Below are positions 1,443-14,287 of a stretch of 64,000 nt of DNA, in pieces. The DNA lies in assembly GCF_001618145.1 (NCBI RefSeq), contig NZ_LQNF01000005.1:124001-188000 (forward strand), in the 5' to 3' direction. Source of the DNA: Oceanobacillus damuensis. GTDB lineage: Bacteria; Bacillota; Bacilli; Bacillales; Amphibacillaceae. The translations under genes and the position numbers were made by a program. Below the pieces are notes generated by a model. It saw only the letters and a program-made list of their open reading frames with translations, made no database searches and was not told where the DNA came from. Within the stretch, counting starts at the first letter, position 1. Every line of letters begins with the position of its first letter.

Positions 1443-2987
1443 CTAGTGGTTCGCACCACTACTCTTATATCCCGTATTTGCTTTCACCTTAACTTCTGCA
1501 TAACGTTTCATATTCGATTCCTTCGATAAAATCGTACCTACATATCCCCCAAGGAAACCAAGTGGTACCGAAACGAGAGCTGGATTCGCAAGTGGGAAAA
1601 TCGGTTCTCCTACGAATAATGCGGCCCCTTCAATCGGCGAGAAAACACTTGGACTAAGCGATACGAGGATTAATGCTGAAAACAACCCAGTTAGCATTGC
1701 TGTAACTGCTCCCGCTGTATTGAATCTTTTCCAATATACGGTGTAAAGAATAACCGGTAAGTTGGCACTTGCAGCTATGCAAAAGGCAAGTGAGACAAGG
1801 AACGCCACGTTTAAATATTGAGCAAATAACGCTAAAACAATCGACAGAACAGATACTGCTAGGGATGCGTAACGAGCCGCTTTTACCTGCTCCGATTCCG
1901 AAACCTTCCCTTTTTTTATAATTTGGCCGTATAAATCATGGGCAAATGCCGATGCACCCGCTAGTACAAGCCCCGCTACGACCGCTAATATCGTAGCGAA
2001 GGCAACAGCAGAGATAAAGGCAAACAGTAAATCGCCACCGATTGCCTGTGCAAGAAGTGGTGCTGCCATATTCCCACCTGGATTTGCAGCAATTATAGTC
2101 TCATACCCAACAAATGCCGCAGCGCCAAAGCCCAGAAATAATGTAAGAATATAGAATAAACCGATTACCCATGTTGCGGTAATAACAGAACTTCTTGCCG
2201 TTTTGGCATCTTTCACAGTAAAAAAACGCATGAGAATGTGTGGTAACCCGGCAGTTCCAAGTACTAAAGCCAACATGAGTGACAGTGTACCCAGTGGTTC
2301 TGTATATTGTAAGCCAGGCATTAAATAAGCTGCTCCATGAGTTGTAACTGACTTCACTTCTGTAAACATCTGTCCAATGTTAAAATTGAACTTTAACATT
2401 ACGAGAAAAGCCATAATGACCATCCCAGCCATAAGAAGGACAGCTTTCACGATTTGCACCCAACTTGTTGCGATCATACCTCCAAATAATACGTAAGTTG
2501 TCATCATCACACCAACAATAAGCACAGCCAGCCAATATTCAATACCAAACAATAGTTGGATAAGTGCGCCAGCGCCAACAAGCTGTGCAATCATGTAGAA
2601 GGTACTAATCGTAATTGTGTTCAGAGCTGCTGCTCCCCTAACCTTTCTAGCATCAAAACGGGATTTGATCATGTCAGCAAGTGTATATTTACCAAGATTG
2701 CGTAATGGTTCAGCGACAAGAAATAGTACGACTAAGTAAGCAATCAAAAATCCGATACTATAGAAAAAACCATCAAATCCAAAAATTGCGATTGCTCCAG
2801 CAATTCCAAGGAAGGAAGCTGCTGACAAATAGTCTCCTGCTATTGCAAGACCATTTTGCGTTCCAGTAAGCCCTCCACCAGCAGTATAAAAGTCCCCTGC
2901 TGTTTGGGTCTTCCTAGCGGCAAAAAAAGTGATCACAAGGGTTAATGCAACAATGGCAAGAAAGAGTATAATGACAGTAGGACTCAT
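1443..2987 (-). CDS. actP: Cation/acetate symporter (SSS family, ActP/YwcA-like)
   Basis: A 514-residue integral membrane protein of the sodium:solute symporter family, closest in appearance to ActP/YwcA, which import acetate and other short carboxylates with a cation. The N-terminal AGGGLTGTQNGLAIAGDYLSAASFLG signature region and about 13 hydrophobic segments are visible. Its ATG overlaps the stop of the upstream DUF485 gene by four bases (ATGA), so translation is probably coupled. The pairing with DUF485 and with acetyl-CoA synthetase supports acetate as substrate. It is the last gene of the module, followed by a strong terminator. Confidence 0.92.
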   Translation of the reverse strand: MSPTVIILFLAIVALTLVITFFAARKTQTAGDFYTAGGGLTGTQNGLAIAGDYLSAASFLGIAGAIAIFGFDGFFYSIGFLIAYLVVLFLVAEPLRNLGKYTLADMIKSRFDARKVRGAAALNTITISTFYMIAQLVGAGALIQLLFGIEYWLAVLIVGVMMTTYVLFGGMIATSWVQIVKAVLLMAGMVIMAFLVMLKFNFNIGQMFTEVKSVTTHGAAYLMPGLQYTEPLGTLSLMLALVLGTAGLPHILMRFFTVKDAKTARSSVITATWVIGLFYILTLFLGFGAAAFVGYETIIAANPGGNMAAPLLAQAIGGDLLFAFISAVAFATILAVVAGLVLAGASAFAHDLYGQIIKKGKVSESEQVKAARYASLAVSVLSIVLALFAQYLNVAFLVSLAFCIAASANLPVILYTVYWKRFNTAGAVTAMLTGLFSALILVSLSPSVFSPIEGAALFVGEPIFPLANPALVSVPLGFLGGYVGTILSKESNMKRYAEVKVKANTGYKSSGANH

Positions 2988-3337
2988 CGACCGTCTCCCC
3001 CTTGCTCCATCTCTTTTATAATTTGATCCGCTTGCTTATCAAAGCTAGCTGCTTTCTTCACGTAAATCGTACATAAAACCCATGTCATCACAAATTGAGC
3101 TAAAGCGAATAGCCATACCCATGAAATATCTCCAATCGCCGGCGTGTTCAGAAAGGTCGTATAAGAAGTTAATATTGGTAGCATGAAGTAAAATACTAGG
3201 AAAAAAATCGTTAATGGTATAATGAATTTTTTTCGATCATGCATGAGCTTTTTAAAGGATTTACTCTCGATTACTTGCTCAAAGTCGATCTCTTCTGTAA
3301 CATACTGCCCCTGCTTATAATTTTTTTCAGCACCCAT
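2984..3337 (-). CDS. DUF485 membrane protein (YjcH/YwcB-like), ActP partner
   Basis: A small protein (117 residues) with two predicted membrane segments (about residues 37-57 and 70-92) and charged ends, matching the DUF485 family found beside ActP-type acetate symporters in many bacteria. Its exact role is unknown; an accessory or regulatory subunit of the symporter is the usual guess. The second ATG (3337) is chosen because GAGGAGG lies six bases upstream; the ATG at 3343 touches that site. The stop overlaps the symporter start. Confidence 0.88.
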   Translation of the reverse strand: MGAEKNYKQGQYVTEEIDFEQVIESKSFKKLMHDRKKFIIPLTIFFLVFYFMLPILTSYTTFLNTPAIGDISWVWLFALAQFVMTWVLCTIYVKKAASFDKQADQIIKEMEQGGDGR

Positions 3338-3426
3338 ATACATCCTCCTCGGATTGTTGAATGAAGGTTTTCTAGGCTTTTAACCCAAGAAAACCTATCA
3401 TTTCAATTGAAATCGTTTAATAGATT

Positions 3427-5151
3427 CTATTCTTCCATTGTCGAAAGGTCACCCGTTGGCAAACCGAGATCCCATGCCTTTAATACACGGCGCATGATTT
3501 TTCCACTTCTTGTTTTTGGCAAAAATTCACGAATTTCAATTTCCCTTGGCGCAGCGTGTGCGGCAAGTCCTTGCTTAACAAATAAACGAAGCTCCTCTTG
3601 TAATTCATCTGTTTTCGTGTAGCCATCCCTTAAGGCAACAAATGCTTTAATGATTTCACCACGTTCAGGATCTGGCTTCCCGATTACTGCTGCTTCTGCA
3701 ACGGCAGGATGCTCAACAAGCTTACTTTCTACTTCAAACGGACCTACCCGCTCACCCGAGGTTTGGATAACATCGTCATCCCTGCCCTCAAACCAGAAAT
3801 AGCCATCTTTATCTTTTAACGCCAAGTCCCCTGATTCAAACCAGCCATCGACTGGAAAGTATTGATTGAAACGCGCTTCATTTTTCCAAACGGCTCGGAG
3901 CACCGATGGCCACCCAGCCTTCACGCATAGTTTGCCCATTTTCCCCGGTGGAAGCTCGTTGCCCTGCTCATCTAAAATCGCTGCTTCAATACCTGGAAAT
4001 GGCTTCCCCATTGAACCAGGCTTCATTTCCATGGAACGATAATTGGCAATAATAATTCCACCTGTTTCTGTCATCCACCAATGATCATGAATCCGCAATT
4101 GGTAAACTTTCATACCCCAGTGAACGACCTCGGCATTTAACGGCTCTCCAACACTTAAAATATGTCTTAATGAACGTAAATCATATTCTTTCGTAACATT
4201 ATCTCCTACAGCCATCAGTCTTCGAAATGCTGTTGGTGCACTTAACCACACGTTCACACCGTATTTTTCAATCGTTTTATACCAATCTTCCGGACTAAAA
4301 CGACCACCCCGAATCAGATTTGATGCACCATTTAACCAGGGTCCAAAAATTCCATACGATGTACCTGTTACCCACCCGGGATCAGCTGTGCACCAATAGA
4401 TATCTTCTTCCTGCAAATCCAAAACCCATTTAGCCGTTTGATAATGTTGGATCATCGCATTATGAACATGCAGTATTCCTTTTGGCTTTCCAGTTGAACC
4501 AGATGTATAATGTAAAATCATCCCATCCTCACGATCTACCCATTCAATCTCAAAATCACGAGATGCTTTTTTCATTTCTGTTTCGTAACTGTAAAACGTT
4601 ACATCTTCTGTATTATCTGGTAGTTCCTCTTCACCGACCAAAATGATCTGATTTAAATGCGGAAGCTCTTTATATGGCACACGTGGCAAGAGTTCTTTAG
4701 TTGTAATTAGCGTAGTCGCATCACTATTTTCTAATCGATCACGAACGGCCTGTTCCATAAATGCTTCAAATAAAGGACCTACAATGGATCCATTTTTTAA
4801 AATCCCAAGCAAACTAATATAAAGCTCGGGTGATCGTGGCATGAATAAAAAGACTCGTTCTCCTTTTTCAATACCGATTGTTCGTAATACATTCCCAAAT
4901 TGATTTGATAGTAACTTCAAATCCCGAAATGTATATTTTTCATCACGTTGTTGATCACTGTAATAAAGTGCAACTTTATTCTTTCTCCAACTATTCGCAT
5001 GACGGTCAATTGCCTCATGGGCCATATTTACTTTCCCAGTTTCATGCCAGGAAAAGCTCTTCTCCACATCTTTCCAATTAAACTCCTTATATGCCTGCTC
5101 ATAATCAGGCATATTTGCTTTCTCCTTTACCGCTGCAATTGTATCAGTCAC
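3427..5151 (-). CDS. acsA: Acetyl-CoA synthetase (AMP-forming)
   Basis: Activates acetate to acetyl-CoA through acetyl-AMP. The 574-residue length agrees with Bacillus AcsA (about 572). Motifs seen: the AMP-binding P-loop YTSGSTGKPKG, the WWMTETGG core, GWFESGDLA, and the C-terminal SGKIMRR whose lysine is the usual acetylation-regulated residue. Start: GTG at 5151, preceded by AAGGGGAGG nine bases away; the frame stays open upstream to 5289, but the family N-terminus aligns with the GTG start. A cre palindrome lies about 40 bases upstream. It is followed after 89 bp by the DUF485 and actP genes, forming an acetate uptake and activation set. Confidence 0.93.
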   Translation of the reverse strand: MTDTIAAVKEKANMPDYEQAYKEFNWKDVEKSFSWHETGKVNMAHEAIDRHANSWRKNKVALYYSDQQRDEKYTFRDLKLLSNQFGNVLRTIGIEKGERVFLFMPRSPELYISLLGILKNGSIVGPLFEAFMEQAVRDRLENSDATTLITTKELLPRVPYKELPHLNQIILVGEEELPDNTEDVTFYSYETEMKKASRDFEIEWVDREDGMILHYTSGSTGKPKGILHVHNAMIQHYQTAKWVLDLQEEDIYWCTADPGWVTGTSYGIFGPWLNGASNLIRGGRFSPEDWYKTIEKYGVNVWLSAPTAFRRLMAVGDNVTKEYDLRSLRHILSVGEPLNAEVVHWGMKVYQLRIHDHWWMTETGGIIIANYRSMEMKPGSMGKPFPGIEAAILDEQGNELPPGKMGKLCVKAGWPSVLRAVWKNEARFNQYFPVDGWFESGDLALKDKDGYFWFEGRDDDVIQTSGERVGPFEVESKLVEHPAVAEAAVIGKPDPERGEIIKAFVALRDGYTKTDELQEELRLFVKQGLAAHAAPREIEIREFLPKTRSGKIMRRVLKAWDLGLPTGDLSTMEE

Positions 5152-5188
5152 TCCACATGTCCTCCCCTTATAATTTTTCCAGACCTTT

Positions 5189-5203
5189 TTGTAAGCGCTT
5201 ACT
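5189..5203 (-). promoter_or_regulatory. cre site (CcpA operator) upstream of acsA
   Basis: Contains the perfect palindrome GTAAGCGCTTAC (5191-5202), matching the catabolite-responsive element core used by CcpA in Bacillaceae. It lies 38 bases upstream of the acsA start codon, so it probably represses acsA and the downstream symporter genes when sugars are plentiful. B. subtilis acsA is known to be under CcpA control. Confidence 0.8.
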
Positions 5204-5295
5204 TTGATTATAAAGGAAGACAGCATTGCAGGTAAGAGAATTTGCTTCAACCGTTTAAATTCGCGATTGAACTGCCAAAATCTTATCATTAATGG

Positions 5296-6051
5296 TTAAT
5301 TTCCGAATAAATCAAAAAGATGCTTCCTTGCAGCCCGACTAACTGGAATTGTCGTCTGTTTTTTATCTTTTAACGTTACGTTGCTCGTCCCATTGAACCA
5401 CGGGGTAATCTCCTGAACATGATTCAAATTGACAAGGTAACTACGATGCGTTCTGAAAAAAGCATGTCCCTGCAGCTTCTTTTCCAGCTCTTGTAATGTC
5501 AGTTTACTGTGAAACACCTTATCCTCCGTATGTATTTCTAACATCCGCTTAAATGGAACGGCATAATAAATTGCATCCGGAGATAAGACAACCGTCCGAT
5601 CATTATCATCGATCAGTAATTTTGTCGTTTGCGGCATGCTTTGACTTGTTACCTGTTGCGAGGATTCTCTTTCCAATTGCTGCATTCGCTTACGAACACG
5701 ATTCATTGCTGTTTGGAATCGTTCCGTCTCATAAGGCTTAAGCATATAATCGATGGCTTCCATTTCAAACGCTTCTACTGCATAGTCATCATACGCAGTT
5801 GTAAAAACAAATAATGGGGCTTTTATATATGCAAGCTCCGTTATTTTCTTCGCTGCATCTACTCCATGCATGCCTGGCATATGAACATCAAGAAAGATAA
5901 CATCCGGCTCATGCTCTATATAGAGATCAACGAGTTGCTCCCCTGTCTGTGCACTTGGCAACAGTTTCACATCTTGTTCCTTTTCCAATAAATAGATTAA
6001 TTCTTCACGTACCAATTGTTCATCTTCTGCAATCATTGTATGGATTTTCAT
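5296..6051 (-). CDS. LytTR-family response regulator
   Basis: A 251-residue two-component response regulator. The receiver domain (about 1-120) has the acidic pair in IAEDE and the phospho-acceptor Asp55 in FLDVHMPG; the C-terminal LytTR DNA-binding domain spans about 150-250 (FFRTHRSYLVNLNHV). It follows its kinase gene by 14 bp, with an AAAGGTGGGG ribosome binding site. Position between a symporter/kinase pair and acsA suggests it controls acetate or related carboxylate use, as CrbR does in Gram-negatives; this is inference. LytT of B. subtilis, a relative, responds to pyruvate. Confidence 0.9.
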   Translation of the reverse strand: MKIHTMIAEDEQLVREELIYLLEKEQDVKLLPSAQTGEQLVDLYIEHEPDVIFLDVHMPGMHGVDAAKKITELAYIKAPLFVFTTAYDDYAVEAFEMEAIDYMLKPYETERFQTAMNRVRKRMQQLERESSQQVTSQSMPQTTKLLIDDNDRTVVLSPDAIYYAVPFKRMLEIHTEDKVFHSKLTLQELEKKLQGHAFFRTHRSYLVNLNHVQEITPWFNGTSNVTLKDKKQTTIPVSRAARKHLFDLFGN

Positions 6052-6065
6052 AAAACCCCACCTTT

Positions 6066-7805
6066 CTATTGCTCCTTATAGGGAATGAAAAAATATACTT
6101 CACTTCCACTAGGTAAATTACGTACATGTAAGCGTGCTTCCTCACCAAGCAGATTAATTAAACGTTGATTCACATTATATAAGCCAGTCCCACCATGCGG
6201 GCTTTCCGTCAACACAACATTTCCGACCTGTGATAACCCCCCCTCAGAGAATCCTCGCCCGTTATCCCGAACGCTGATTTTCACTCGATGACCGATTCGC
6301 TCCATGTTTACATCAATTCTTCCCCCTTCTGTAACATGTTCCAGCCCATGACCGATACTATTTTCTACAATCGGCTGAATCGATGACGGTGGTATAAGCA
6401 GATGGGAAATTCCTTCTGGTTGTGAAAAATTAATTTGTAATCGGCTCGTAAATCGTGTCTGAATAATCGCAATATACGCTTTTACATGTTCCGATTCCTT
6501 TTCAAGTGACACGAGATGTGTGGAGACAAGCTTTAGATTAAATCGCATAAAGTGGGCTAATTGAACGGTTATATGTCTTGCTTTTTCAGGGTCTTTGCGA
6601 AATAATGCTGCAATCATATGAAGTGTATTAAAAAGAAAATGCGGGTTTATTTGTGCTTGTAAATTACTTAGCTCTGCGTCACGTGTATGTAGTTCAAGCC
6701 TTTCCGCTTTAATCGTTTTTAATTGATTTCCAATTAATTGCCCAAGCCCCTCTGCTAACATCAGCTCAACCGGACGGATATGCTGCGCTTTGCGAAAATA
6801 TAATTTAATCAATCCAATTGTTTTACTTGCTTCCAAAATCGGGATAATAATAACAGCTTCTAATGGACAATTTTTCGTTGTACATTGAATTTCTTCTTGT
6901 GAATAAGCGACAAGCATTTGCTTCGTATCCATTGCTCTGTGCGATAGTTGTGTCGTCAGCTGGTTCCCAATTTGATGATGGTCACTTCCTAATCCTTTAT
7001 GTGCCATCACTTCCTTTTCATTTGTCACAGTGACAGCCGCTAACTTCAATCGCGCATATAGAAGGCCCGCAATCCCCTCTGCCTTTTTCTGAAAAGAATC
7101 CTCCTTTAAAAAAGGCAGCGCTTCTTCAGCAATCGTCAATGCTTGTTTTGTTGCAAATGCTGCTTCATTTTCCTGCTCCCGTAACACAATGGCGATCATT
7201 GCTGTAAAAATAGCAATGGCAATACTGTTCGATAATACAACCGGTAATCCAATCATGTTAATCATTGCAATCATTTCCCTGTCCTGTGAATCAAAAATAA
7301 GCAATAAATGCATGAGTAAAATAGGAGGAAAAATCCCGATAAATAGTGCTTTTAATGGTGATATAACCCGCTCCTGCGAAAAAAACCGTGCCGTTAACCC
7401 CGCTAATAATCCCGTTAACGGATTCACGAGGCTATTAGCAAGAAAACCAACTCCACCGAGGAAAAATAAATGTGTACCAGTAATAATCCCCGCTCCAAGA
7501 CCTACGATTGGTCCTCCCAATAACCCTGCTATGACAATTGCAACTAAACTTGAGCTTACAACCATTTGATCGTCTTGGACATTCCAGACAAACGCTTGAA
7601 TCACAGTAAAGTCACTTCCGATAACTACCCCAGTTAATGTTCCTGCAATCCCGAACAGACCAAACACACACGCATGAATACCTGCCATTTTGAAATTAAA
7701 TTCACGATATAGCAGCGATCTGAATCCCGGGCTTCGTGTAAGAACAAATGCGATAACTAGCAATAGGCCTAAACGTTCAAATAAAACGATTGTCAAATAC
7801 ATCAC
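6066..7805 (-). CDS. LytS-type sensor histidine kinase with 5TM-Lyt domain
   Basis: A 579-residue membrane sensor kinase. Order: five to six N-terminal membrane segments with the GGPIVGLGAGIITG pattern of the 5TMR-LYT domain (about 1-210), a GAF-like cytoplasmic domain (about 230-365), a LytS-type His_kinase domain with QINPHFLFNT (His389), and a C-terminal HATPase with NSIGHG and DNGRGF. The start is GTG at 7805 (AAGGAGAG seven bases upstream) or ATG at 7802; either overlaps the stop of the upstream symporter gene, so symporter and kinase are translationally coupled. This suggests that the symporter takes part in ligand sensing. Confidence 0.9.
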   Translation of the reverse strand: MMYLTIVLFERLGLLLVIAFVLTRSPGFRSLLYREFNFKMAGIHACVFGLFGIAGTLTGVVIGSDFTVIQAFVWNVQDDQMVVSSSLVAIVIAGLLGGPIVGLGAGIITGTHLFFLGGVGFLANSLVNPLTGLLAGLTARFFSQERVISPLKALFIGIFPPILLMHLLLIFDSQDREMIAMINMIGLPVVLSNSIAIAIFTAMIAIVLREQENEAAFATKQALTIAEEALPFLKEDSFQKKAEGIAGLLYARLKLAAVTVTNEKEVMAHKGLGSDHHQIGNQLTTQLSHRAMDTKQMLVAYSQEEIQCTTKNCPLEAVIIIPILEASKTIGLIKLYFRKAQHIRPVELMLAEGLGQLIGNQLKTIKAERLELHTRDAELSNLQAQINPHFLFNTLHMIAALFRKDPEKARHITVQLAHFMRFNLKLVSTHLVSLEKESEHVKAYIAIIQTRFTSRLQINFSQPEGISHLLIPPSSIQPIVENSIGHGLEHVTEGGRIDVNMERIGHRVKISVRDNGRGFSEGGLSQVGNVVLTESPHGGTGLYNVNQRLINLLGEEARLHVRNLPSGSEVYFFIPYKEQ

Positions 7806-9346
7806 GGGCGATCTCTCCTTGCATCAATCCCTGTTTGTGCCTTTAAGTGAAACAAATGAAATGGAACCGCATTTTCTTGACCTTCCCGTGAAAGAATCGC
7901 CCCAAGATATGCCCCTAAAAAACCAATCGGTATGGCAATAATCCCTGGATTATAAAGCTGTATAAGCGGTTCTCTTGCAATCCACCCTCCATCTGGATTC
8001 ATCACATGTGGTCCGACTAACAGTAACAGTAACGATGCTGTTAAACCACAGACCATTCCAGCAATTGCTCCCGTTTGGTTAAATCGACGCCAATAGATTG
8101 TTAATAATAGAACTGGTAGATTACTAGATGCTGCAACAATAAATGTTAGAGAAACAAGAAACGTTACATTCATATTTCTTAACCCAAGTGCAAATAATGT
8201 TGATAAAAGACCTATAAAAAATGCTGTCCAACGTGCAGCAAGTAAACGCTTCTTTTCCGTTGTATTTCCTTTTTTAATGATATGGTAATAAATATCGTGA
8301 GAGAAAGCAGTCGTAGCCGAGATGACTAAACCAGCTACAACTGCAACAATGGTTGTAAATGCAATCGCAGCAATAAATGCCATTAGAAAGTCGCCACCTA
8401 GGTTCTCCGCTAATAATGGTGCAGCTAAATTTCCAGATGGATCAAGCAAAACCAATTCCTCAAATCCAACTAATGCAACAGCCCCTAGGCCTAAAACAAG
8501 TGCAATCAAATAAAACACACCAATAATCCAGCTTGCAGTTAAGAGGGATTTGCGTACTTCTACCGTATTTCGAACGGTAAATAATCGAATTAAAATATGT
8601 GGTAAACCAGCTGTACCAAGGATTAATGCAAGATGGAGGGAAACCGTTTCCAAAGGATTGCTAAATAAATGACCCGGCAACGAAAAATGATCACCTAAAG
8701 GGGAGCCTAGTGTAACCTGTTCAAGGAGGTTTGAAATGCTCCAATTAAACCGGGAAAATACAATAAGTGCAAGTAGAAATGTGCCAGATAAAAGTAGTAC
8801 CGTTTTGACGATTTGTACCCATGATGTTGCAAACATCCCACCAAATACAACATAAATTGTCATGAGTAACCCTATGATTAACACGGAAGTTGAATAATTA
8901 ATATTTAACAATAATCTAATTAACAAACCTGCAGCCACTAATTGCGGAATCATATAGAAAACCGAGATAATGAGAGCTCCAGTTGCCATCATTCCTCGCA
9001 TTTTATAGCTTGGGAAACGCGCGCAAATAACATCACCTAATGAATACTTGCCTAAACGATGCACTGGCTCAGCGATAAAGAACAAGACAATTAAATAGGA
9101 AACTAAAAATCCAATCGCATATAAAAAACCATCAAAGCCATTGATTGCAATCATACCAACGATTCCCAGAAAGGAAGCCGCACTAATATAATCCCCAGCA
9201 ATGGCCATCCCATTTTGTGTACCTGTTAAACTGCCAGCAGCAATATAGAACTGATTGGTCGTTTTACTTTGCCTTGCCGCCCAATAAGTAATAATTAATG
9301 TACAAACGACAATACAGAGAAAAAATAGTAGATAGGTAATGTTCAT
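7802..9346 (-). CDS. SSS-family symporter coupled to the sensor kinase (ActP paralogue)
   Basis: A 514-residue sodium:solute symporter paralogous to the symporter at 1443-2987 along its whole length (both share AGDYxSAASFLGI, GTAGLPHIL and the same length). Unlike that gene it has no DUF485 partner and its stop overlaps the LytS-type kinase start. It may transport acetate or a related carboxylate, act as the sensory part of the kinase, or both; the sequence does not settle this. It is the first gene of the minus-strand module, with an AT-rich promoter region of about 300 bp upstream. Confidence 0.88.
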   Translation of the reverse strand: MNITYLLFFLCIVVCTLIITYWAARQSKTTNQFYIAAGSLTGTQNGMAIAGDYISAASFLGIVGMIAINGFDGFLYAIGFLVSYLIVLFFIAEPVHRLGKYSLGDVICARFPSYKMRGMMATGALIISVFYMIPQLVAAGLLIRLLLNINYSTSVLIIGLLMTIYVVFGGMFATSWVQIVKTVLLLSGTFLLALIVFSRFNWSISNLLEQVTLGSPLGDHFSLPGHLFSNPLETVSLHLALILGTAGLPHILIRLFTVRNTVEVRKSLLTASWIIGVFYLIALVLGLGAVALVGFEELVLLDPSGNLAAPLLAENLGGDFLMAFIAAIAFTTIVAVVAGLVISATTAFSHDIYYHIIKKGNTTEKKRLLAARWTAFFIGLLSTLFALGLRNMNVTFLVSLTFIVAASSNLPVLLLTIYWRRFNQTGAIAGMVCGLTASLLLLLVGPHVMNPDGGWIAREPLIQLYNPGIIAIPIGFLGAYLGAILSREGQENAVPFHLFHLKAQTGIDARRDRP

Positions 9347-9597
9347 GGACTCACCTTCATATTAGATTGTATATGGAATTTCCGTTAGTGATAAATCTGC
9401 ATGTTGGAATTACTGGAGTATATTATAAATTATGTAATAATTCACTAAATTCTTCACTTTGCTTTTATTATAAATTGTATATGATGCGGAATGAGAAGTA
9501 AAGATTTCTGTGATTCTGGAAAGCTTCCTTTAACAAAGGATTGAAGCAATTAATACGTATGTGAAATTAACGGAAAAACTCTCCAACAATCATAAAG

Positions 9598-9638
9598 GGG
9601 GTCGATCCTGCTTCCAATTAAAGGAAGTGATCGACCCC
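9598..9638. terminator. Long hairpin between FMN reductase remnant and acetate module
   Basis: Inverted repeat GGGGTCGATC / GATCGACCCC with a second inner stem CTTCC / GGAAG. It lies 11 bases past the TAA (9649) that would end the full-length reductase. The T-run on the minus strand is short (CCCTTTATG), so termination is likely but not certain. The rest of 9347-9597 is AT-rich and probably holds the promoter of the symporter/kinase operon. Confidence 0.6.
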
Positions 9639-9648
9639 GCTCTTTCAT

Positions 9649-10188
9649 TTAAGCCATCCTAACCCTCTTTCCAACCTTTTCCATAAAATAATCAAGCTGC
9701 TTCTTCGTACGAGTCAGAATCTCTGTATCAATAATCGGATTATCTCACGTTTTATCTATTTGACTATCCAAAAAGTAAAGCCCTTTTAAATTTTGTCCCT
9801 TCAAAGTTGCCAATAACGGCTTTAATGCATATTCCAGGGCCAACAAATGTGACAGGCTTCCTCCTGTCATCAAAGGAAGTACCGGTGTATCTTTTAGAAT
9901 ATCCGGCGGGAGGATGTCAAATAATGCTTTTAACACTCCCGAATATGATGCTTTATAAACCGGCGTTCCAACAATAACACCTTTTGCATCTTCTATTTGG
10001 TTAGCAATCTGTTTAACTTCAGGACTATCAAAATTGCCAAACAGCAAATCCTCTGCGGGAACATCTTTCACAGAAATATGGGTCACAGTTAAATGTTCTT
10101 TTTCAAGGAAAGATCCTAAATATTGAAGGATTCGTTCGGATCTGGATGATTCAGAAGGACTGCCGGAAACAATCACAATATCACTCAT
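9649..10188 (-). pseudogene. NAD(P)H-dependent FMN reductase (SsuE-like) with in-frame TGA
   Basis: Flavodoxin-fold FMN reductase supplying FMNH2 to flavin monooxygenases. The opening VSGSPSESSRSERIL is the FMN phosphate-binding loop; GTPVYKASYSGVLKALFD and the MTGGSLSHLLALE stretch are typical of SsuE. The frame stops at a TGA (9745-9747) after 147 codons, but continues in the same frame for 31 more codons (DNPIIDTEILTRTKKQLDYF...) to a TAA at 9649-9651. The total of 178 sense codons is the normal family length, so the TGA is an internal nonsense codon (or sequencing error) removing the C-terminal helix. The shortened product might still fold. Last gene of the sulfur-salvage cluster. Confidence 0.8.
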
Positions 10189-10226
10189 AGGAATGATCCT
10201 CTCTATTATTTACTTTCATACATGGA

Positions 10227-10252
10227 TTGCTGCCTGACTTAACAGGCAGCAA
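10227..10252. other. Intergenic hairpin
   Basis: Perfect 10-bp inverted repeat TTGCTGCCTG / CAGGCAGCAA with a six-base loop, between the glutaredoxin-like and FMN reductase genes. There is no U-tract on the minus strand, so it may be a processing, stability or attenuating structure rather than a full terminator. Confidence 0.6.
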
Positions 10253-10263
10253 GAACAAGTTTT

Positions 10264-10521
10264 TTAGTACTTTTTCAGTGCTGCTTCCAGATGTTCAATT
10301 CCTACTTCTGTCACTGCTTCATAGGCATTTCCCTGACCGATTTCCACAACAGGAACATGACGGATTCCATATTTCTGATCCAAAATATCTCTTCTGTCAT
10401 CGTGTTCAGTTACATCGATCGTTTGATACGAGATGTTTTTCTCGTCCAAATAATCTTTTACCTCTCCACAATAACTGCAACCTTGTTTTGCCCATACGAC
10501 TACGGATAAATCTTTTGCCAT
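10264..10521 (-). CDS. Glutaredoxin-like protein (YtnI-like)
   Basis: An 85-residue thioredoxin-fold protein with the active-site motif CSYC (residues 15-18), cis-proline HVPVV and the usual glutaredoxin length. In B. subtilis a similar small glutaredoxin (YtnI) sits beside a YtnJ-type monooxygenase in the ytm operon, which handles S-modified cysteines; the same pairing here (39 bp downstream of the monooxygenase) suggests it belongs to that pathway, perhaps recycling a sulfur intermediate. The pathway assignment is inference; the fold and motif are clear. Confidence 0.87.
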   Translation of the reverse strand: MAKDLSVVVWAKQGCSYCGEVKDYLDEKNISYQTIDVTEHDDRRDILDQKYGIRHVPVVEIGQGNAYEAVTEVGIEHLEAALKKY

Positions 10522-10560
10522 TTTTACTTCTTCCTCTCTATTGGTTAATTGTTCTTCTAT

Positions 10561-11874
10561 TTAAACGGAATAGCGGTTTTTCTTAAAAGGCAGACCAAGG
10601 TTTCCTCTTAGCGTGTCACTTTCATAATTGCGGTTATAGTAGCCCTTTTCTTCCAGGATTGGAATGACATGATTAATAAAATTCGTATAATCATTTCCAA
10701 GCACTTGCATATTGAGAACAAATCCATCCGCTGCTCCGTGATCAATCCATTCCATCATCTGTTCTGCCACCTGTTCATAGGAACCAAAGAAGTTGTCCTT
10801 GGGGGTGGCAACGCGTAATGCTACTTCGCGTAATGTCAGATTTTCTTTCTTCGCCGTTTGCTTGATTTCATCTGTCGTCGATTGGAAACTGTTTTTCCCC
10901 ACATCGCCTATATCCGGAAAAGCTTCATCAAGCGCAAATTGACTGAAATCAAAATGATCGAAATAGCGCCCCATAAAGTTTAATGCTTCGTCAATCGATA
11001 CCAGATTTTTGATTTCATGGTATCTTTCTTCAGCCTCCTCCATTGTTGTCCCCATGATTGGCGATAAAGCTGGCAGGATAACAATCTCTTCTTTCTTACG
11101 TCCTATTTGTGCAGCCTGCTCCTTTACATCATCATAAAATTTCTTTGCGCTTTCGAGTGATGTTGTATGGGTAAAAATTGCTTCCCCGTATTTGGCAGCA
11201 AAACTCCTCCCCGTTTTGGAAGCCCCAGCCTGAAAAATAACCGGTTGCCCCTGTTTGGAACGGTCGATATTCAATGGTCCTTTCGCTGTGAAAAAGCGTC
11301 CATTGTGATCTAATGTGTGCACCTTTTCTTTATCGAAAAATTGACCTGTTTCCCGATTTCTTACAAAAGCATCATCTTCCCAGGAATCCCATAAACCTTG
11401 GGTCACCTCCAAATACTCATCGGCCATTTCATAGCGAAGGGAATGATCTGGGTGATTTCCTTTATTAAAGTTACTTGCACTGCCTTCAAGAGGTGATGTC
11501 ACAACGTTCCAGCCAGCACGTCCATCGCTGATTTTATCCAATGATGCAAATTGACGGGCAATGTTAAAAGGCTCACTATAGGTTGTCGATACTGTTCCAA
11601 CCAACCCGATTTTGGATGTCACCATTGCTAGTGCCGATAGCAATGTTAATGGTTCAAACCGGTTTTGAAAATGAGGGATTGATTTCTCATTAATGTGTAA
11701 ACCATCGGCAATAAAGGCAAAGGAAAACCCTGCTTCTTCTGCCTGCTTTGTTACGGAGACATAATGATCAAAATTAATGCTCCCATCAGCCGGCACATCT
11801 TTAGCTCTCCAGGAATTCATATGCGCACCCGGTCCATATAAGAGAACACCAAATTTTATATCTTTTTTCGCCAT
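10561..11874 (-). CDS. LLM-class flavin-dependent monooxygenase (NtaA/SnaA/YtnJ family)
   Basis: A 437-residue FMNH2-dependent monooxygenase of the NtaA/SnaA/DszA (SoxA) group. Seen: the N-terminal beta strand ending GPGAHMNSWR, DGRAGWNVVTSP (flavin/phosphate region), PVIFQAGASKTGRSFAAKYGEAIFT, and a C-terminal DGFVLN. Relatives YtnJ and YxeK oxidise N-acetylated S-alkyl or S-succinyl cysteines in B. subtilis; the neighbouring FMN reductase, glutaredoxin-like protein, amidohydrolase and amino-acid ABC transporter fit that use. The start is ATG 11874 (AAGAAG eight bases before); a GTG at 11883 is possible. The exact substrate is not shown by the sequence. Confidence 0.9.
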   Translation of the reverse strand: MAKKDIKFGVLLYGPGAHMNSWRAKDVPADGSINFDHYVSVTKQAEEAGFSFAFIADGLHINEKSIPHFQNRFEPLTLLSALAMVTSKIGLVGTVSTTYSEPFNIARQFASLDKISDGRAGWNVVTSPLEGSASNFNKGNHPDHSLRYEMADEYLEVTQGLWDSWEDDAFVRNRETGQFFDKEKVHTLDHNGRFFTAKGPLNIDRSKQGQPVIFQAGASKTGRSFAAKYGEAIFTHTTSLESAKKFYDDVKEQAAQIGRKKEEIVILPALSPIMGTTMEEAEERYHEIKNLVSIDEALNFMGRYFDHFDFSQFALDEAFPDIGDVGKNSFQSTTDEIKQTAKKENLTLREVALRVATPKDNFFGSYEQVAEQMMEWIDHGAADGFVLNMQVLGNDYTNFINHVIPILEEKGYYNRNYESDTLRGNLGLPFKKNRYSV

Positions 11875-11936
11875 ATTTAACACTTCTTTCTAGTGTATTG
11901 GTTTTATGAATTCACCTTTTTTAAAACGTGTAAATC

Positions 11937-12728
11937 CTACTCTTCAACACTTACTGTTACATCTTCTCCAAACCATTTTTCGGATAATTCCTTTATCGTT
12001 CCATCTGCTTTAAGTTCTTCATGTGATTGATTGAGTTCTTCAATGCGCTTCTTATTTTCCTCATTTTTCACAAAGGGCATTGCTACAGGCTTTTCACCAA
12101 ACGCTTCCTCTGCTACCTTTAAAGGAATTTCTTTGTCTTTAACTTGTACCAGTAACATTTCTCTGCCAGTTACAAACGCATCGATCTTTCCTGAAGCAAC
12201 ATCCTGATACACGACTTCCGGACCTTCATAATTGATCACTTCTATCTCATTGTTTGAATCATTTTCTTTCAGAACTTCTCCATAGTTCGAACCAAGTATG
12301 TTTGCAGCTTGTTTGCCTTTTAAATCTTCTAATGTATTAATGGTGTCATTCTCTTTACTCACACCAATTCCTACTCTTGAATAGTAGTAAGGTTCCGTAT
12401 AGTCATATTTTTCCGCTCTTTCAGGAGTAAGCGCAAAACCAGCAGCCGTATCTATTTTACCTGTTTCCAGGGAAGCAAGAACTCCTGACCAATCTGAAAG
12501 CACCCATTCTGTTTCATACCCTGCATTTTCGATTATGGTCTCCATCACTTCTACAACAAATCCTTTTATTTCACTATCTTCCATATAATAAAGGGGATAT
12601 CCATCCGGTGTTGCACCTATTTTTATTACCTTGTCCTCACTTGATGACTCTGTCCCGCCTGCACTCTGACCGCAAGCTGTTAATAACAGAACAGCTACTA
12701 ACATAAGCAAACTAACTATTTTTCTCAT
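11937..12728 (-). CDS. Amino-acid ABC transporter substrate-binding lipoprotein
   Basis: Polar amino-acid binding protein (family 3 solute-binding, 263 residues). It has a lipoprotein signal peptide with lipobox LTAC (Cys19), followed by a Ser/Glu-rich linker and the periplasmic-binding fold (GFVVEVMETI, GFALTPERAEKYDYTEPYY, which is the family signature). Preceded by GGGAGG. It lies 40 bp behind the permease gene and completes an ATPase-permease-binding protein operon resembling YxeM/TcyJ systems for cystine or S-modified cysteines. Confidence 0.92.
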   Translation of the reverse strand: MRKIVSLLMLVAVLLLTACGQSAGGTESSSEDKVIKIGATPDGYPLYYMEDSEIKGFVVEVMETIIENAGYETEWVLSDWSGVLASLETGKIDTAAGFALTPERAEKYDYTEPYYYSRVGIGVSKENDTINTLEDLKGKQAANILGSNYGEVLKENDSNNEIEVINYEGPEVVYQDVASGKIDAFVTGREMLLVQVKDKEIPLKVAEEAFGEKPVAMPFVKNEENKKRIEELNQSHEELKADGTIKELSEKWFGEDVTVSVEE

Positions 12729-12768
12729 TTTGACTACCTCCCTGTTGTTTTATCTAAAGTATAGAAAG

Positions 12769-13440
12769 TTACCTTTGGTAGGCTTTACCCAACCGGTTTT
12801 CATACCATTCCTGCAGTTTGCTGTAGAGCATCGTCAGGACCCAGTAGATGAGACCAACTGCAAAATATGCCTCGAAAAACTTAAGGTTGGAAGTTGCCAT
12901 TAATTTTCCCTGTGCTAATAATTCCGTAACACCGATAGTAAATGCTAACGATGAATTTTTAATTAATCCAATAAACATATTACCCGTTGCCGGTATGGCG
13001 TTCCGTACTGCCTGAGGCAAGATAATCCCTCTTAGCGCTTCGGGATAGGTCATCCCAACTGAAATGGCAGCTTCCGCCTGGCCTTTATCAACGGATTCCA
13101 ATCCCGCCCGGAAAATCTCTGCAAGGTATGCGGATGTATTAATACTGAAAGCAATAATAGCCGCTGTTTCTGCAGATATGGAATTCAGTAATGGAAACAG
13201 CTGCGGCAAACCAAAATAAATCATTAATAATTGCACCAATGCCGGTGTTCCTCTAAAGAAAGATATATAGACTTTCGCAATCTGTAATAGAACTGGAATT
13301 TTATTTACTAGAATGAGAGCAAGAAAAACTCCGATAACGATAGCAATAATCATGGAAACGATTGCTAAGTACAATGTGATCGGAACATATTTCAACAGCT
13401 CCGGTATAATTTCTATCATATAACCAATATCAAAATTCAT
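12769..13440 (-). CDS. Amino-acid ABC transporter permease (HisM family)
   Basis: A 223-residue inner-membrane permease with about five membrane segments and the EAA loop (EAAISVGMTYPEALRGIILPQA), which contacts the ATPase; FRGTPALVQL is typical of the polar amino-acid subfamily. The open frame extends upstream to 13524, but the start is set at ATG 13440, giving the family's usual N-terminus, after a GGCGGTG ribosome binding site. It is 46 bp downstream of the ATPase gene. Confidence 0.91.
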   Translation of the reverse strand: MNFDIGYMIEIIPELLKYVPITLYLAIVSMIIAIVIGVFLALILVNKIPVLLQIAKVYISFFRGTPALVQLLMIYFGLPQLFPLLNSISAETAAIIAFSINTSAYLAEIFRAGLESVDKGQAEAAISVGMTYPEALRGIILPQAVRNAIPATGNMFIGLIKNSSLAFTIGVTELLAQGKLMATSNLKFFEAYFAVGLIYWVLTMLYSKLQEWYENRLGKAYQR

Positions 13441-13486
13441 ACAAACACCGCCATCGTATAATTTGAAGCTTCCAATAGCCGTTTCG

Positions 13487-14287
13487 CTATGTCGATAGAA
13501 GATCCCGCTTCTCAGATGAAGCATGTGAATCTACTTTTATATCTTCTGCAAATTGTTTGGTATACTCCTGTAAAAACTGTTTCGTCCGTTCATTTTTCGG
13601 GTGATCAAATATTTCCTCAGGTGTTCCTTGCTCAACGATGACACCGTCTGCCATAAATACAACTTTATCTGCCACCTGTCTGGCAAAGCCCATTTCATGT
13701 GTTACAATCAGCATCGTTTTCCGCTTATTGGCAATCCCCGAGATAACTCGGAGCACTTCGCCGACCCACTCTGGATCCAGTGAAGATGTTGGTTCATCAA
13801 AAAGGATAGCGTGTGGCTTAACAGCGAGCGCTCTTGCAATTCCTACTCGCTGTTGCTGTCCCCCTGATAGGGATACAGGATAGCTGTCAGCTTTTTGCAC
13901 CATGCCAACCTGGTTGAGGAGATCCCGTCCTATTTGATCGGCCTCATTTTTATCCATCTTTTGCGTAACGATTAACGCATGTGTAACATTCTCCAATGCT
14001 GTTTTATTTTTGAAGAGGTTATAATGCTGGAAGACCATGGATGTCTGCGTACGCAAGCGATTTATTTCGGCTCTTTTCACTCGAGTTGCGTCCACTGTTA
14101 CTTCTCCAACCTGGATTGTACCGAAATCCGGCTGCTCCAGAAAATTAAGGCAGCGCAGCAGTGTGGATTTTCCGGAACCCGAGGGACCTATAATAACAAC
14201 CACTTCTCCATCATTGACCTCAAAATTAATATTTTTTAAGACCTCCGTCTGATCAAAACGCTTCTTTAGATTAGAAACCTTAATCAT
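13487..14287 (-). CDS. Amino-acid ABC transporter ATP-binding protein
   Basis: A 266-residue ATPase with Walker [10 protein letters not shown] (about residues 34-42), Q-loop VFQHYNLF, signature [15 protein letters not shown], Walker [12 protein letters not shown] and switch histidine VTHEMGFA. It belongs to the GlnQ/TcyN group serving polar amino-acid importers. It is the first gene of the transporter operon, read from a probable promoter at 14362-14390, downstream of and co-directional with the LysR regulator gene. Confidence 0.93.

Follow-up and report, generated by a model that had tools for sequence, protein, structure and literature searches.

Why should a set of genes for acetate use contain two similar symporters, one of them encoded in overlap with a histidine kinase? 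The question is raised by a locus of Oceanobacillus damuensis. In the 64,000-nucleotide stretch analysed here (contig NZ_LQNF01000005.1, positions 124,001 to 188,000; hereafter the window), six genes on the minus strand, all with intact frames, encode in order of transcription a symporter that we call SSS1, a LytS-type histidine kinase, a LytTR response regulator, the acetate--CoA ligase AcsA, a DUF485 protein and a second symporter, ActP. This gene set and its position agree with the original prediction, an earlier note based on the letters of the window. We consider it moderately probable, from comparative sequence data, that SSS1 serves as the kinase's sensing subunit and that together they turn on the uptake and activation of acetate. 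The loss of two arginines from the kinase, together with the co-inheritance of the two genes, suggests that sensing, and with it the switching on of acetate use, has passed to a copy of a transporter.

SSS1 (7802..9346, minus strand; PF00474, 330.2 bits), the proposed sensing subunit, is an ActP/MctC-type symporter belonging to a clade of kinase-linked symporters. It was 52% identical to the downstream ActP, which bears out its description in the earlier note as an ActP paralogue. The MctC and ActP models were the best models for both symporters of the window, with scores below those models' cut-offs in each case (670 for MctC and 750 for the ActP subfamily; 509.5 and 500.8 for SSS1, 633.5 and 594.3 for the downstream ActP). 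The kinase gene (6066..7805, minus strand) shares 4 nt with that of SSS1, GTGA, which comprises the SSS1 stop codon TGA and the kinase start codon GTG. Of the "translational fusion" originally proposed, the stop/start overlap was thus found, but not the fusion: these are two overlapping genes, probably coupled in translation, and among 35 open frames with a length of 950 aa or more, none held both SSS1 and the kinase. The 5TM-5TMR_LYT, His_kinase and HATPase_c domains of the kinase and the LytTR domain of the regulator all exceeded their gathering scores and assign the two proteins to the LytS/LytTR type, while a GAF_3 match in the kinase fell below its cut-off. The phospho-acceptors are intact (His389 in the kinase, Asp55 in the regulator), and the aspartate was kept in 100 of the 100 regulators aligned from the fetched loci.

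To describe the conservation of this pair, we used a family search that gave kinase matches in 104 of 159 genomes, with identity to the window kinase of at least 45% in 73 of the 159, the window's own included. A total of 102 loci was fetched: 72 relatives at or above 45%, one locus with a 43% match (L079), two from named records (L139 and L141), and 27 ordinary LytS loci, which are part of those in the family search listing. They were grouped by kinase identity to the window into group 1 (at least 58%; n = 56), group 2 (45-58%; n = 18) and group 3 (below 45%; ordinary LytS plus L079; n = 28). L063, with a kinase identity of 57.9%, was counted in group 2 by the 58% line but grouped with group 1 in both trees described below.

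The earlier note had named non-conservation of the gene pair as one of the observations that would refute it. SSS1 lay directly upstream of the kinase in 72 of the 74 fetched loci with kinases at least 45% identical (hereafter linked kinases), and no symporter was found upstream of the kinase in any of the 28 group 3 loci. In group 1, SSS1 was directly upstream in 55 of 56 loci, with the 4-nt overlap in 49; the exception, L121, has SSS1 split into two frames. In group 2, an SSS1-type symporter was upstream in 17 of 18 loci (the exception being L141, from Brevibacillus), with the 4-nt overlap in five. Chance adjacency of SSS1 and the kinase, considered as an explanation, was rejected on the basis of the conserved neighbourhoods and the trees.

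SSS1 was also sought independently of the kinase. Matches at E 1e-100 occurred in 136 of 397 genomes of the order, and 50 of these matches were examined: 11 were of the SSS1 clade, all beside a linked kinase, and 39 were ActP-type, none beside one. Among the first 30, identity to SSS1 was at least 65% in 10, each of which had the kinase as a neighbour; the 20 that followed were ActP-type with DUF485 and no kinase. The 20 further matches, from other families, comprised a single group 2-type symporter, which adjoins a linked kinase (at L322), and 19 of ActP type without one. Linked kinases were missing from 86 of the 159 genomes; in 15 of these 86, searched for SSS1, none was found, while DUF485-ActP occurred alone in 4 of the 15. 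SSS1 was thus seen only together with the kinase in the genomes searched. A phylum-wide search at E 1e-128, in which three candidates per genome were scored, returned the system in at least 1 of 398 genomes, the window's own; because only three candidates were scored per genome, this count is a lower bound on its spread. Among the 80 matches listed in a scan of named organisms, at least three linked-type loci were found, in Neobacillus mesonae, Lentibacillus sediminis and Brevibacillus porteri.

Quick trees, built without bootstraps and subject to a long-branch warning, included every third group 1 locus, with all group 2 loci in the symporter tree and all group 2 and group 3 loci in the kinase tree. 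The kinase-linked symporters of groups 1 and 2 formed one clade (SH-aLRT 100), apart from ActP; in L141 of Brevibacillus, it is the second of the downstream symporters that groups with this clade (SH-aLRT 95). The linked kinases likewise formed one clade (SH-aLRT 100), in which L141 branched first and group 2 then separated from group 1. The branching order of the two trees matches, and the system has a single origin. In the early-branching L141 locus (Brevibacillus porteri, 3932-10138), the order is kinase, regulator, DUF485, ActP and second symporter, with the symporter of the SSS1 clade last. A different arrangement was observed at L079, from the small genome G112, where an orphan linked-type kinase and its regulator stand without SSS1; this kinase was nested in group 1 on a long branch (1.39), and the locus represents a natural loss of the SSS1 partner.

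Downstream, group 1 loci carried DUF485 in 54 of 56 cases and a symporter in 54, and a symporter was downstream in all 18 group 2 loci. The ActP of the window (1443..2987, minus strand; PF00474, 388.7 bits), the proposed working importer, had homologues of 82-93% identity in most group 1 loci and was also found without the kinase and SSS1. The group 2 downstream transporter is of another kind: at L073, the one locus scanned, it was a VC_2705-type symporter with a DUF4212 subunit, and 16 group 2 downstream symporters formed one clade far from ActP. The effector of group 2 therefore differs from that of group 1, so that the receptor pair is constant and the effector transporter variable.

If SSS1 does the sensing, what has become of the kinase's own ligand site? 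E. coli BtsS is reported to bind pyruvate via Arg72, Arg99, Cys110 and Ser113, the two arginines being highly conserved among LytS kinases (PMC10653868, in excerpt). We aligned BtsS and PyrS of E. coli with the 102 fetched kinases and the window kinase, using BtsS numbering. Arg72 was kept in 27 of 28 group 3 kinases, in 0 of 56 of group 1 and in 0 of 18 of group 2, and the counts for Arg99 were identical. The window kinase has Ser, Leu, Asn and Val at the four positions, and Cys110 was replaced by Asn in 72 of the 74 linked kinases, all 74 of which retained the catalytic histidine. The sole group 3 kinase without the arginines was that of L079, which belongs by tree inside the linked clade and whose genome is without SSS1; both arginines were also gone from the linked kinase of L322, a locus from another family. 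Nine further LytS kinases, taken from named records, have an intact sensor domain; eight of them (L142-L149) kept both arginines, and the kinase of Paludibacterium L151 kept R99 but had lost Arg72. The 5TMR domain is described as having the fold of ECF transporter S-components, with an NXR motif lining the cavity (PMC11109136, in excerpt); this motif position reads SSS in the window kinase. At Propionispora L147 (6041-10422), a LytS kinase that keeps both arginines has a distant symporter (23% to ActP) 499 bp upstream, which is either an unrelated neighbourhood or a different coupling.

Another part of the kinase might carry the signal instead. The kinase could read an internal signal via its GAF-like domain, through Cys308, Cys313 and His277, with SSS1 only supplying substrate. 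Each of these residues was present in 74 of 74 linked kinases, which speaks for such a role, but they also occurred in 22, 24 and 23, respectively, of 28 ordinary LytS kinases, and in BtsS. Being common in ordinary LytS kinases, they leave the link to SSS1 unexplained, and we regard this explanation as improbable.

We then compared SSS1 with ActP at 189 columns whose conservation reached 97% or more across 74 ActP-type proteins, a set that omits the non-ActP downstream symporters of five group 1 loci (L040, L046, L056, L060 and L065). SSS1 kept 133 of these columns, the group 2 copies 124 and the uncoupled Brevibacillus copy 164. Changes that were fixed or nearly fixed in groups 1 and 2, but not found in Brevibacillus, included A134P, G138A, V158I, A182T and D260N; A345T was fixed in both groups, with Ser at that position in Brevibacillus. 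Of 1176 genome pairs (48 of the 56 group 1 loci plus the window), 1169 showed lower conservation of SSS1 than of ActP. In a rate test on the 48 of 56 group 1 loci with SSS1, ActP and regulator (L121, with its split SSS1, was left out), the distance correlation between kinase and SSS1 was 0.901. Given ActP, their partial correlation was 0.749, a value not reached in any of 2000 permutations, versus 0.635 for kinase and regulator. This covariation is supportive only, because genes that lie side by side may have a common history for unrelated reasons.

These data also bear on a simpler arrangement, in which SSS1 would be an ordinary second importer, the kinase would sense another small ligand directly through a remodelled membrane cavity, and co-inheritance would reflect an operon of importer and regulator. 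The replaced cavity positions are indeed conserved within group 1 (Ser70 in 53, Ser72 in 56, Asn110 in 55 and Asn114 in 56 of 56 kinases), SSS1 keeps most ActP-invariant residues, and DUF485 preceded SSS1, as it does ActP genes, in 30 of the 102 fetched loci (24 of 56 in group 1 and 6 of 18 in group 2). However, both arginines were dropped, which is unexpected for a carboxylate receptor; SSS1 was not found without the kinase in the genomes searched, whereas ActP was; SSS1 has changed at positions invariant in ActP (A134P, G138A, A182T, D260N and A345T); and its rates covary more tightly with the kinase than those of the kinase do with the regulator. On balance we find this arrangement rather unlikely.

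The original prediction tied the regulator to acsA, and a candidate binding site does lie in front of this gene. The regulator gene (5296..6051, minus strand; Response_reg and LytTR domains) is followed by acsA (3427..5151, minus strand; PRK04319, 953.7 bits, over cut-off) and by the gene for the small membrane protein DUF485, of the YjcH type (2984..3343, minus strand; PF04341, 92.9 bits). The acsA frame opens at ATG 5289; we place its probable start at GTG 5151 instead, because the PRK04319 match starts only at residue 49 and a ribosome-binding site (5168-5160) precedes the GTG. This start would leave a promoter region of about 144 nt between the regulator gene and acsA. It contains three direct repeats with 21-bp spacing (5297-5289, 5276-5268 and 5255-5247, minus strand), which are shared with relatives and form the proposed regulator binding site; a -10 box, TATAAT (5207..5212, minus strand), aligned at the same place in relatives; and, directly after this box, the cre-like site AGTAAGCGCTTACA (5190..5203, minus strand), which resembles the CcpA consensus and whose core was present in 44 of 55 promoters.

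In relatives, the region between the regulator and acsA or DUF485 showed direct repeats of the AACCATTCA or AACCGTTGA type, again spaced by 21 bp and followed by a -10 box and a cre-like site. Pairs of the motif AC[ACG][GA]TT[CG]A in the downstream regions were offset by 21 bp (18 times), 42 bp (five times), 10 bp (once) and 31 bp (once). With a relaxed motif, 26 of the 55 promoters belonging to the system contained a 21-bp pair, as against 0 of 24 ActP promoters at loci that lack the kinase (Fisher 1.1e-5, a value that ignores relatedness), and in group 2 regions self-similarity at lag 21 was 31 versus a mean of 1.8. A spacing of two helical turns suits LytTR regulators. Those such as AgrA are reported to bind two direct repeats upstream of promoters (PMC4227749, in excerpt). 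Autoregulation of the SSS1-kinase-regulator genes by the same site was rejected, as the strict motif was found in 0 of 57 upstream regions (group 1 and the window).

Two minor features of these regions were observed. The first repeat (5297-5289) overlaps the TAA stop codon of the regulator (TAACCATT); 19 of 55 group 1 regulators end in TAA followed by CCAT, and four more in TGA or TAG followed by CCAT. At group 2 loci such as L066, L069 and L073 (three loci were folded), a hairpin of the ATACTGAATAT / ATATTCAGTAT type with a T run lies between the regulator and the DUF4212 gene, overlapping the -10 box of the downstream promoter. To transcription arriving from upstream it would resemble a terminator, whereas transcripts that start at this promoter would not contain its 5' arm.

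Several observations weigh against SSS1 as a dedicated sensor wired to acetate genes, the case for which is comparative throughout. Having kept 133 of the 189 ActP-invariant columns, SSS1 may still transport, as known co-sensor transporters are reported to do (PMC7096432, in excerpt). The lost arginines and the co-inheritance thus favour the transporter-like sensor subunit of the original prediction, but not its further suggestion of a protein that does not import nutrients. On the tree the arginines were lost once, which means that the 74 cases are not independent, and the conservation of the replacements in group 1 (S, S, N, N) fits a remodelled ligand site too. The Brevibacillus L141 kinase is without the arginines (Thr, Val), yet its SSS1-clade symporter is downstream and does not overlap. 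The structural model of the kinase had a mean pLDDT of 81.4 and a pTM of 0.47; it matched solved structures via the kinase part, and no S-component occurred among the best 50 of 953 structure matches. As for the target genes, acsA was nearby in only 16 of 56 group 1 loci and the strict repeat motif was present in only 22 of 55 promoters. Upstream of SSS1, the less strict motif was at the shuffled level (4 hits versus 3.98), and these AT-rich regions had a raised self-similarity of 52 at lag 21 (the mean being 14.6), although the value at lag 52 was higher still (57). The cre core was also found in 8 of 24 ActP promoters without the kinase. At L320, in genome G058, which has no linked kinase, a degenerate 21-bp pair missed by the pattern precedes DUF485-ActP, perhaps as a remnant after loss of the system. 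Finally, a motif scan of the window's own genome with up to three mismatches gave 75 matches versus 41 for the reversed pattern; the window's own site was unlisted, so the pattern is too strict for target finding.

With these points weighed, the locus would encode a two-component system that is coupled to a transporter and responds to acetate or a related monocarboxylate. The overlapping genes would yield SSS1 and the LytS-type kinase together, as the two subunits of one membrane receptor. The kinase cavity would no longer bind a carboxylate as BtsS binds pyruvate, so that SSS1 would sense the substrate and signal to the kinase whether it has bound substrate or is transporting it. The kinase would then phosphorylate the LytTR regulator, and the regulator would bind the 21-bp-spaced repeats upstream of acsA (or DUF485-actP) and thereby activate both the uptake of the substrate and its conversion into acetyl-CoA. 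CcpA probably acts as a repressor of this promoter while a better carbon source is available, as the cre-like site suggests. More tentatively, and with slightly less than even confidence, we propose a new kind of two-subunit receptor, in which an SSS symporter, dedicated to this role and no longer a bulk importer, has its conformation read by a 5TMR (S-component-type) kinase with a disabled pocket. This pair would be wired to two unrelated effectors, DUF485-ActP in most of group 1 and DUF4212 with a VC_2705-type symporter in group 2, and would be an SSS-based transceptor independent of the CrbS/CbrA fusions.

Could the system instead be a split relative of CrbS/CrbR? As here, CrbS/CrbR (MxtR/ErdR), CbrA/CbrB and RpuS/RpuR link an SSS module to a kinase, and the parts (SSS, kinase, regulator, acs, actP) and the presumed target are alike; CrbS/CrbR is reported to control acs and reportedly actP (PMC7918813, in excerpt). 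The CrbS group, however, has STAC, PAS, HisKA and REC in one polypeptide with another SSS lineage, unlike the separate overlapping genes found here. An SSS1 search of Aeromonas popoffii and six other genomes (proteobacterial loci) gave symporters and no CrbS-like frame, and a family search over six of these seven genomes yielded a CrbS-like hybrid kinase of Alkalimonas (L287). SSS1 had no significant match to its SSS domain (BLASTP E 0.036) and was 40% identical to E. coli ActP, and is therefore ActP-type. The window kinase has a PF06580 His_kinase domain and no PAS or REC, whereas L287 has PAS_7, HisKA and Response_reg; that the kinase here is of another family than that of CrbS was recognised in the earlier note. 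No Pfam match to a STAC linker was found in the window kinase, nor by Pfam in L287. CrbR is a LuxR-type regulator, unlike the LytTR regulator here. Symporter, kinase and regulator are each from lineages other than those of CrbS/CrbR, and the resemblance, on these comparisons, is functional and arose independently; the kinship implied by the original prediction was rejected, and we judge a split CrbS to be extremely improbable.

The closest working analogies are UhpC/UhpB and DctA/DcuS. The Uhp system comprises an MFS symporter, a MASE1 kinase and a LuxR-type regulator, as against SSS, 5TMR-LYT and LytTR here. In the E. coli UhpC-UhpB-UhpA-UhpT system for glucose-6-phosphate, a transporter paralogue and a membrane kinase switch on the true transporter, as proposed here. 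UhpC is reported both to contact its kinase and to transport (PMC7096432, in excerpt). In DctA/DcuS of E. coli and DctA/DctB/DctS of B. subtilis, a separate secondary transporter is described as co-sensor (PMC6978683, in excerpt), but in those systems the co-sensor is the very protein that works as importer, from another transporter family, and the kinase detects C4-dicarboxylates on its own. BtsS/BtsR and PyrS/PyrR (YpdA/YpdB) have the same kinase and regulator families as the linked system, and BtsS/BtsR is reported to control a pyruvate transporter gene (PMC10653868, in excerpt); however, BtsS binds pyruvate itself through the residues replaced here, and btsS of E. coli has no adjoining symporter gene.

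Judged by titles and the start of abstracts, the system was not described in any paper listed by full-text searches of an open-access library, subscription papers and preprints lying outside those searches. If the proposed mechanism is true, acetate sensing through a symporter has been solved two or more times, in CrbS by fusion and here with two separate proteins acting as a pair. This pair and its arginine-free pocket, along with the early-branching, uncoupled Brevibacillus version and the orphan kinase of G112, would then form a natural series for the handover of sensing from receptor to transporter, and the small, separable system could serve in acetate biosensors.

Beside the acetate genes, on the minus strand at 9745-14287, lie genes for an FMN reductase, a glutaredoxin-like protein, an NtaA/DmoA-type monooxygenase and a cystine-like ABC transporter, which together look like a cluster for organosulfur uptake and cleavage. 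The SsuE-like FMN reductase frame (9745-10188, minus strand) stops at a TGA after 147 aa, versus 171 positions in the model; past this codon the same frame stays open for about 30 more codons, which points to a possible nonsense change or sequencing error.

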